A stretch of DNA of 64,000 nucleotides from positions 496,001 to 560,000 of the forward strand of contig NZ_CP059194.1 of NCBI RefSeq assembly GCF_014251635.1, written 5' to 3'. The notes under the pieces were generated by a model. That model was not told the origin of the DNA and did not search any database. It saw only the letters and a list, made by a program, of their open reading frames with translations. The position numbers and the translations under genes were made by a program. How positions within the stretch are numbered: the first letter of the stretch is position 1; every line of letters starts with the position of its first letter. Positions 26,890 through 29,661 of the stretch are shown here, in pieces. Source of the DNA: Blattabacterium cuenoti (lineage in GTDB: Bacteria; Bacteroidota; Bacteroidia; Flavobacteriales; Blattabacteriaceae).

Positions 26890-29661
26890 ATGAAATATAA
26901 TTTTCGTCAAATAGAAAAACGTTGGCAAATATACTGGAAAAAACATAACGTTTTTTATACCAAAGAAAGTAAAAAGAGAAAATACTACATTTTAAATATG
27001 TTTCCTTATCCTTCTGGAACAGGTCTTCATGTAGGACATTGTTTAGGTTACATAGCATCAGATGTTTATGCAAGATATAAACGAGCAGAAGGGTATAATG
27101 TTTTAAATCCAATAGGATTTGATTCTTTTGGACTTCCTGCAGAACAATATGCTATACAAACAGGAAAACATCCTTGTGAAACTATTCTTGAAAATTCACG
27201 TAGATACGAAGAACAAATGAATAAAATAGGGCTTTCTTTTGATTGGAATAGAAAACTATATACCAGCAATCCTAATTATTATCGTTGGACTCAATGGATG
27301 TTTATTCAAATTTTTAATTCTTGGTACGATAAAAACACTGAACAGGCTAAACCTATAGATCTTTTAATTAAAGAATTTAATAAAAACGGAAATAATTTCA
27401 TTAACACAAACACCACATCAAATTACAAATTTGATTCAAAAACGTGGAATAAATTCAATTTACACGAAAAAGAATCTATTCTTTTAGATTATAGATTAGC
27501 TTTTTTATGTAATAATATAGTGAATTGGTGTCCAGATCTAGGAACAGTATTGGCTAATGATGAAATAAAGAATGGAAAAAGTGAAAGAGGTGGATATCCA
27601 GTTTACAAAAAAAAAATGTTACAATGGCATATAAGAATTAGTGCATATGCAGAAAGACTTATAAAAGGTTTAAATTTTATTGATTGTTCTCAATCTTTAA
27701 AAAAGTTACAATATAATTGGATAGGAAAGTCAATAGGAATTTCTATATTTTTAAAAATTGTTTATCCTATTGGTGAAATCAATCAAATTGAATTATTTAC
27801 TTCTCATCCAGAAATGATATTTGGAATGACTTTTATCATACTATCTCCAGACCATCCACTTGCAGATAAAATTTTACACCATAAAAATGGTTTTACATAT
27901 TTTACTCAAGAATTTCCTGCATACAAAAATACAAAAAATATTTATGGTATTTTTACAGGGAATTATGCACTACATCCTTTTATTTCTAATAAAAGGATCC
28001 CCATTTATGTCAGTAATTTTTTTACGATAAATAATAAAACCCAATCTATAATAGGAATACCTGGATATGAAGAAGAAAGTAGAAAATTTGCAAAAAAATT
28101 GGGGATAGAGATCATAAAAATTTTAGATGTTAATGAAAAATGTATGAATTCTAATTTTTTAAATGGATTAAATATTAAAGAAGCAAAAGAAAAAATAATC
28201 AAAATTTTAATAAATAATAAAATAGGAGAAATTAAAATCAGTTATAAGATTCGTGATGCTATTTTTTCCAGACAAAGATATTGGGGAGAACCAATTCCTA
28301 TTTATTTTAAAAATAAAATTCCAAAAGCAATTCCCATTGATAAATTGCCTATAGTCCTTCCTAAAATAGAGAACTTTCATCCTAAAGATGGAAAATCTCC
28401 ATTAGTTAGAGTTCAAAATTGGGCCTGGGATGAAAGAAACATGAAAATTGTCTCTAATATTCTTATTGATCATAAATATGTATTTCCAATGGAAACTAGT
28501 ACAATGCCTAGTTGGGCAGGATCGAGTTGGTATTTTCTTAGATATATGGATGTAGATAATAATCAATTCTTTATTGATAAAAAAAAAGAAAATTATTGGA
28601 AAAATGTCGATTTATATATTGGTGGAGCTGAACATAGTACAGGTCATTTGATTTATGCTAGATTTTGGCATAAATTTTTGTTAGATAGAGGTTGGATAAA
28701 TACTGAGGAACCTTTCAAAAAAATATTGAATCAAGGAATGATTTTGAGTTATTCTGCTATTATACTAAAAGTGATAGGAGAAAATACTTTTATTTCTTAT
28801 GGATTAAAAAATAAAAAACACGCATATTTTTCTTTTCAAGAAATATATGTAGATCTTTCTTTAATAAAAAAAAACAATGAATTAGATATTAATAAGTTTA
28901 AAAAATACAGACCGGAATTTTATTCATCTGTTTTTATTTTGGAAAGAGGATCCTTTTTTTGTAAAAGAAAATTGGAAAAAATGTCAAAATCCAAATATAA
29001 TGTAATAAATCCTGATGATATTTGTGAAAAATATGGATCAGATGTATTTCGTATTTATGAAATGTTTTTAGGTCCTATTAATCAATCTAAACCTTGGGAA
29101 GAAAAAAAAATAAATGGGATAAAAAATTTTATAAATAAATTTTGGAGTTTATTTCATAAAAATAAAATTTTTAAAGTAAGTGAAATGAATCCAACAGTTC
29201 AAGAACTTAAAATTTTACATAGTACTATAAAAAAAATTCAAAATAAAATGCAATCTTTTTCTTGGAATACTTCTATAAGTTTATTAATGATTATGACTAA
29301 TCAATTAACCGTATTAAAATGTAACAAAAGAAAAATATTAGAACCTTTAGTTCAATTAATAGCTCCATTTGCGCCTTATATTTCCGAAGAATTATGGTGT
29401 AAGATGGGGAAAAAAAAATCTATTATATTTTATAATTTTCCAGTTTTTAATCCAAAATATATAGTGGAAAAAAAAATAACATATCCGATTATGTTTAATG
29501 GAAAATTCAAATTTTCAGAAAAATTTAATTATAACACTTCAATAGGAGAAATAAAAAATAAAATATTAAATCATCCTAAAACAAAATTTTTTTTGAAAGA
29601 AAAAACTTTACAAAAGTTAATTTTAATCCCTAAAAAAATAATAAATATTTTGTTTAAATAA
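26890..29661 (+). CDS. leuS: Leucyl-tRNA synthetase with degenerate editing site
   Basis: Class I synthetase charging tRNA-Leu. The catalytic core looks intact: HVGH in PYPSGTGLHVGHCLGY, GFDSFGLPAEQYA, SRQRYWGEPIPI, TMPSWAGSSWYFLRYMD and KMSKS. The CP1 editing domain is present (about residues 235-425), but its hydrolytic site is altered. The Thr-rich motif TTRPDT of E. coli reads TSHPEM (residues 304-309), and the GHDQRD motif reads GYEEES (392-397), so the universally conserved editing Asp (E. coli 345) is Ser397. Charging is expected; removal of mischarged norvaline or isoleucine is probably lost. At 923 residues it is full length. Confidence 0.96.
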   Translation: MKYNFRQIEKRWQIYWKKHNVFYTKESKKRKYYILNMFPYPSGTGLHVGHCLGYIASDVYARYKRAEGYNVLNPIGFDSFGLPAEQYAIQTGKHPCETILENSRRYEEQMNKIGLSFDWNRKLYTSNPNYYRWTQWMFIQIFNSWYDKNTEQAKPIDLLIKEFNKNGNNFINTNTTSNYKFDSKTWNKFNLHEKESILLDYRLAFLCNNIVNWCPDLGTVLANDEIKNGKSERGGYPVYKKKMLQWHIRISAYAERLIKGLNFIDCSQSLKKLQYNWIGKSIGISIFLKIVYPIGEINQIELFTSHPEMIFGMTFIILSPDHPLADKILHHKNGFTYFTQEFPAYKNTKNIYGIFTGNYALHPFISNKRIPIYVSNFFTINNKTQSIIGIPGYEEESRKFAKKLGIEIIKILDVNEKCMNSNFLNGLNIKEAKEKIIKILINNKIGEIKISYKIRDAIFSRQRYWGEPIPIYFKNKIPKAIPIDKLPIVLPKIENFHPKDGKSPLVRVQNWAWDERNMKIVSNILIDHKYVFPMETSTMPSWAGSSWYFLRYMDVDNNQFFIDKKKENYWKNVDLYIGGAEHSTGHLIYARFWHKFLLDRGWINTEEPFKKILNQGMILSYSAIILKVIGENTFISYGLKNKKHAYFSFQEIYVDLSLIKKNNELDINKFKKYRPEFYSSVFILERGSFFCKRKLEKMSKSKYNVINPDDICEKYGSDVFRIYEMFLGPINQSKPWEEKKINGIKNFINKFWSLFHKNKIFKVSEMNPTVQELKILHSTIKKIQNKMQSFSWNTSISLLMIMTNQLTVLKCNKRKILEPLVQLIAPFAPYISEELWCKMGKKKSIIFYNFPVFNPKYIVEKKITYPIMFNGKFKFSEKFNYNTSIGEIKNKILNHPKTKFFLKEKTLQKLILIPKKIINILFK

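Follow-up and report, generated by a model that had tools for sequence, protein, structure and literature searches.

It is well established that aminoacyl-tRNA synthetases of host-restricted bacteria can lose editing; the source cited for this in PMC7373986, PMC11415595 and PMC10057733 is the survey of Melnikov et al. (2018). In Mollicutes, the editing domains of LeuRS, PheRS and ThrRS are mutated or deleted (PMC4014445; Li et al., 2011, as cited in PMC7373986, PMC10057733 and PMC4014445), and a review states that three or more losses of editing are not known from any Mycoplasma (PMC7373986). In the leucyl-tRNA synthetase (LeuRS) of E. coli, D345 is critical for the deacylation of Nva-tRNA-Leu, and the D345A variant incorporates norvaline at 0.87-1.65% of the leucine positions in air and at up to 8.81% at low oxygen, without misincorporation of isoleucine (PMC4932531).

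The locus described here belongs to Blattabacterium cuenoti, an endosymbiont from a genus whose association with cockroaches has lasted more than 200 million years (PMC9603385). The window, i.e. the whole stretch of DNA that was analysed, comprises 64,000 nucleotides of a host-restricted, reduced genome of 635,117 bp and contains leuS. The features of this gene, together with three genes located elsewhere in the genome, are listed in Table 1.

Table 1. Features of leuS in the window (window positions) and further genes discussed in the text (marked "genome", positions in the complete genome).
Feature	Position	Strand	Basis
leuS, leucyl-tRNA synthetase, 923 aa	26890..29661	+	ORF, TIGR00396, Pfam, PDB homologues
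HVGH (HIGH) signature of the synthetic site, residues 47-50, conserved	27028..27039	+	
CP1 editing domain, residues 276-445, full length, catalytically degenerate	27715..28224	+	PF13603; conserved columns
Former Thr-rich motif, residues 304-309 TSHPEM (E. coli T247-T252 TTRPDT)	27799..27816	+	alignment
N382 replacing editing-pocket Y330	28033..28035	+	Tyr in free-living relatives, 0/49 Blattabacterium
Former GHDQRD motif, residues 392-397 GYEEES; S397 at D345	28063..28080	+	alignment
KMSKS signature, residues 697-701, conserved	28978..28992	+	
leuA, LeuA 407 aa	genome 582900-584500 (L375)		
thrS, ThrRS 424 aa, whole N-terminal editing region absent	genome 193500-195800 (L376)		
pheT, PheRS beta about 700 aa vs 795 in E. 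coli	genome 605000-607500 (L377)		

The protein matched the whole-protein profile TIGR00396 (leuS_bact) with 749 bits, the cut-off being 548.4, and residues 276-439 matched PF13603, the LeuRS editing domain of Pfam, with 108 bits. A first-pass annotation of the window had described a LeuRS that retains CP1 and both catalytic signatures but has other residues in the two editing motifs, with S397 in the place of E. coli D345; the domain, the signatures and the substituted residues were all recovered as described, and the coordinates were exact, with residue 304 starting at 27799 and residue 397 ending at 28080. At the three threonines of the Thr-rich motif (T247, T248 and T252; E. coli numbering is used for the pocket) the enzyme has Thr, Ser and Met, and at the position of the catalytic Asp it has Ser397. 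The pocket residues Y330, L327, G331 and G333 are likewise absent from this strain. At position 247, where this strain keeps Thr, most Blattabacterium have Ile or Leu.

The alignment comprised LeuRS from 49 Blattabacterium genomes, 35 free-living Flavobacteriales, E. coli and 19 insect symbionts that belong to the same family as Blattabacterium. The TTRPDT motif and the Asp are intact in E. coli and in all 35 free-living Flavobacteriales, none of which shares the altered residues; the shared residues that the first-pass annotation had named as grounds for refutation were thus looked for and not found. In Blattabacterium, D345 is retained in none of the 49 enzymes (43 Ser, 6 Cys), and the same applies to Y330, L327, D251 and G333; T248 is found in a single enzyme, T252 in five, T247 in 12 and R249 in 18. 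The position of T248 is occupied within the genus by S, F, Y, H, D, L, P, I, E or A, and as drift is expected at released sites, such variation of the pocket residues fits a release from selection. P250, G255, P312 and P339, prolines and a glycine that belong to the fold, are kept, while the side chains of the Thr-rich motif vary. However, the pocket is not wholly random, as position 251 is Glu and position 345 is Ser or Cys in all 49 genomes, and this fixation counts against editing loss. A sequencing error or strain artefact was rejected, because the same substitutions recur in 49 genomes. The proposal that an editing site has been lost within an essential gene of an endosymbiont is therefore supported for the whole genus, as sampled by these genomes.

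To describe how far the change extends, conserved columns were defined as those invariant in the free-living Flavobacteriales and E. coli, with 33 in CP1 and 143 elsewhere in LeuRS. Blattabacterium keeps 47.6% of this conservation within CP1 compared to 93.2% outside, and 10 of the 33 CP1 columns as opposed to 111 of the 143 others are kept in at least 48 of the 49 genomes (Fisher p = 5e-7). Amino acid divergence in CP1 relative to the core is 2.05-fold in Blattabacterium LeuRS, 1.44-fold in free-living LeuRS and 1.09-fold in Blattabacterium ValRS, and CP1 diverged more than the core in all 15 pairs that have no member in common. CP1 nevertheless has not been deleted, since its length of 158-200 residues matches the 182-199 residues of the free-living relatives, and it is relaxed yet constrained by purifying selection, with dN/dS values in close strain pairs of about 0.16-0.70 compared to 0.08-0.24 in the core. 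A dN/dS below 1 means that the domain still does something. What had been called decay inside an essential gene thus holds for the pocket, which is lost, but not for the domain as a whole, and selection appears to have been released mainly at the catalytic pocket. The AlphaFold models of CP1 and the full enzyme, with only seven sequences in the alignment, reached a mean pLDDT of 50.8 and 47.0, respectively, and were rejected as too poor for judging pocket geometry. A Foldseek search with this low-confidence CP1 model returned CP1 structures of LeuRS as top matches, at a TM-score of about 0.4, too low to serve as evidence on the fold.

The synthetic site, on the other hand, is unchanged. The leucine- and ATP-site residues M40, Y43, D80, Y527, E532, H533, H537 and KMSKS are as in the free-living relatives in all 49 genomes, and the HIGH signature reads HVGH or HIGH. 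Among the residues checked in these genomes, no substitution relative to the free-living relatives was found that would raise the selectivity of the synthetic pocket. The sequence hence gives no indication that selectivity has increased in compensation, and normal charging with leucine is to be expected of the enzyme.

With a degenerate editing site and a synthetic site that is intact relative to free-living kin, Blattabacterium LeuRS is very probably an enzyme that functions in aminoacylation but lacks post-transfer editing. A loss common to all sampled Blattabacterium is most simply older than the radiation of the genus, before which it would have been fixed. CP1 may have been retained as a scaffold with a structural or tRNA-positioning part, and we infer that the hydrolytic site became free to drift while the enzyme continued to need the domain. 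Norvaline mischarged onto tRNA-Leu would then not be cleared and would enter some Leu codons, so that measurable norvaline in Blattabacterium proteins is plausible, although pre-transfer editing at the synthetic site could remain. The first-pass annotation had anticipated norvaline or isoleucine at Leu codons. Isoleucine is not expected given the behaviour of E. coli D345A LeuRS (PMC4932531), and the prediction should narrow to norvaline, possibly joined by minor amino acids.

A different outcome, which we consider possible but rather unlikely, is that editing was lost and fidelity was kept, because discrimination at the synthetic site or an excess of leucine over norvaline had made hydrolysis by CP1 redundant, as is reported of some organellar synthetases. 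Editing loss need not bring errors (PMC11415595), and the full conservation of the synthetic site is compatible with this, but the same site is without any selectivity-raising substitution. The supply of norvaline also has to be considered. LeuA, whose pathway is able to make norvaline, is present in the studied genome and was found in 43 of the 49 Blattabacterium genomes; it was undetected in the other six (G001, G015, G016, G041, G043 and G047), which would remove one norvaline source there. The studied LeuA is a short form, in which the catalytic domains were matched and no match to the C-terminal regulatory domain was obtained. In Mycobacterium abscessus with an editing-deficient LeuRS, loss of LeuA feedback raises leucine, and norvaline is outcompeted (PMC11057210). 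We hypothesise that the short LeuA could likewise soften the cost of editing loss in Blattabacterium. However, the short form also occurs in a relative with an intact LeuRS editing site (G157), and LeuA shortening therefore does not track the loss of editing.

The other symbionts of the family form a graded series. The LeuRS site is intact in L056, L073 and L074, and nearly intact in L075-L077, which have D251E, in L075 together with T248P. It is partly lost in Karelsulcia, with D345S and D251Y in L079 and additionally T248I and T252M in L078. In the family symbionts with genomes of 170-200 kb, the site is erased and CP1 is down to 130-141 aa. On a tree for which CP1 was left out, the D345 state must have changed at least four times, with some of the Asp calls in 200-kb symbionts being doubtful alignments, and two losses could suffice across the family when the whole pocket is scored. 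A single family-wide origin of the D345 loss was rejected on these counts, and the number of editing-site losses in the family is at least two. Karelsulcia lost a different set of functions from Blattabacterium, as its PheRS keeps the editing Glu (L285, L290) and the editing domain of ThrRS is still present in one of the two Karelsulcia genomes (L126). In the 170-200 kb genomes (L081-L085 and L087-L090, code g58), the SAD domain was undetected anywhere and PheRS B3/4 was weak; possibly four editing functions have been lost in one such genome.

These relatives also bear on two further explanations. The first is that CP1 still edits by means of a rearranged active site formed by E251, Ser/Cys345 and E394. 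The fixation of the first two residues amid variable neighbours, the full length of the domain and its dN/dS below 1 would be in line with this, but T248, T252, Y330 and L327, i.e. most of the pocket, vary freely among strains, the Asp that was lost is the one critical for editing in E. coli (PMC4932531), and E251 is also found in endosymbionts with otherwise intact pockets (L076, L077), which argues for a mild early change and not for a new catalyst. We regard continued editing by this route as highly improbable. It is just as hard to credit that CP1 was repurposed beyond editing, e.g. for tRNA-Leu binding in a role that is host-specific or regulatory. The domain was indeed retained throughout the long association with the host and carries derived fixed residues (E308, S319, N358, G389), but these are few and either conservative or common to other endosymbionts, so that ordinary structural constraint suffices, and the shortened CP1 of the 170-200 kb symbionts argues for a dispensable scaffold. 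A free-standing trans-editor was rejected, since the CP1-like matches in the studied genome besides LeuRS itself were limited to ValRS and IleRS, and SAD occurs only in AlaRS; the search covered LeuRS-CP1-like and SAD domains.

Loss of LeuRS post-transfer editing, as the preferred reading, is accompanied by changes in other synthetases of the same genomes. The studied ThrRS consists of the catalytic and anticodon domains only, and the residues presumably responsible for ThrRS editing lie in the N-terminal region that is absent here. The match to the 565-position thrS profile begins at 146-172 in all 49 Blattabacterium genomes, whose thrS reading frames measure 403-465 aa as opposed to about 640. 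No free-standing SAD-domain editor was found; the single tRNA_SAD domain of each Blattabacterium genome is that of AlaRS, which leaves no separate editor to replace the ThrRS domain. In PheRS beta, the position of E. coli E334, which we take to be the editing Glu, is Gly in 47 genomes and Leu in two, and the adjoining GGEHSG loop is rewritten. ThrRS and PheRS of these genomes thus appear to be editing-deficient as well. The pheT product also appears to be without the N-terminal OB (B2) domain, as no match to Pfam tRNA_bind was obtained.

The remaining editing sites present another picture. ValRS keeps D286, H282 and K277 and IleRS keeps D342, H333, N250 and T242 in 49 of 49 genomes, and AlaRS keeps T567, Q584, C666 and H670 in all 24 that were read. 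The proportion of conserved editing-domain columns kept is 99% in ValRS, 93% in IleRS, 91% in AlaRS, 79% in PheRS and 1% in ThrRS, and the CP1 values of ValRS and IleRS serve as an internal control for LeuRS. The loss of quality control appears to be selective and not wholesale, with the functions for Leu, Thr and Phe lost and the residues for Ile, Val and Ala kept. At the equivalent of T243, IleRS has Ala in 13 and Ser in eight of the 49 genomes (Ala in the studied genome; L240-L269, L329-L347). This change of the third Thr is possibly an early erosion, while the four residues named above are kept.

It seems to us evenly balanced whether a mutualist lineage has for over 200 million years relied on stably inaccurate translation, with LeuRS, ThrRS and PheRS editing all absent. 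If true, the loss in three enzymes exceeds the limit of two that was suggested on the basis of Mycoplasma, and the same selective choice (Leu, Thr and Phe lost; Ile, Val and Ala kept) has been repeated. The genus would offer a natural experiment on which quality control can be dropped, with 49 genomes, common losses and retained sites as internal controls, and with relatives that span every stage from intact to erased. Whether the proposed upper limit to such losses holds, and which editing functions a cell cannot do without, become testable questions.

In comparison with known systems, the kind of event is not new. The short LeuRS 3ziu (637 aa), which we take to be that of Mycoplasma mobile, aligns to Blattabacterium LeuRS without CP1, whereas Blattabacterium keeps CP1 with a pocket that is predicted to be dead. 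Mycoplasma and other Mollicutes share with Blattabacterium the same three synthetases predicted to be editing-deficient, a reduced genome and an intact aminoacylation site. However, Mycoplasma is a parasite and Blattabacterium a mutualist with its own leuA, and the fewer than three losses per Mycoplasma given in the review (PMC7373986) compare with three predicted from sequence in one Blattabacterium genome. E. coli LeuRS D345A has lost the same Asp with CP1 otherwise present (PMC4932531), but by one engineered change to Ala, whereas Blattabacterium has Ser or Cys and has lost most of the pocket; its norvaline rate of 0.87-8.81% at Leu is a measurement in E. coli. Yeast mitochondrial ThrRS, with catalytic and anticodon domains only, has the same architecture as Blattabacterium ThrRS and keeps some pre-transfer editing (PMC4267643), so that loss of the domain is no proof of zero editing. 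The survey of Melnikov et al. (doi 10.1073/pnas.1815992115), as represented in the papers citing it, describes the same phenomenon with the same ecological correlate; to this the present analysis adds the residue-level comparison of 49 genomes, a graded series in symbionts, and a picture that is genus-wide, selective and predicted to involve three enzymes.
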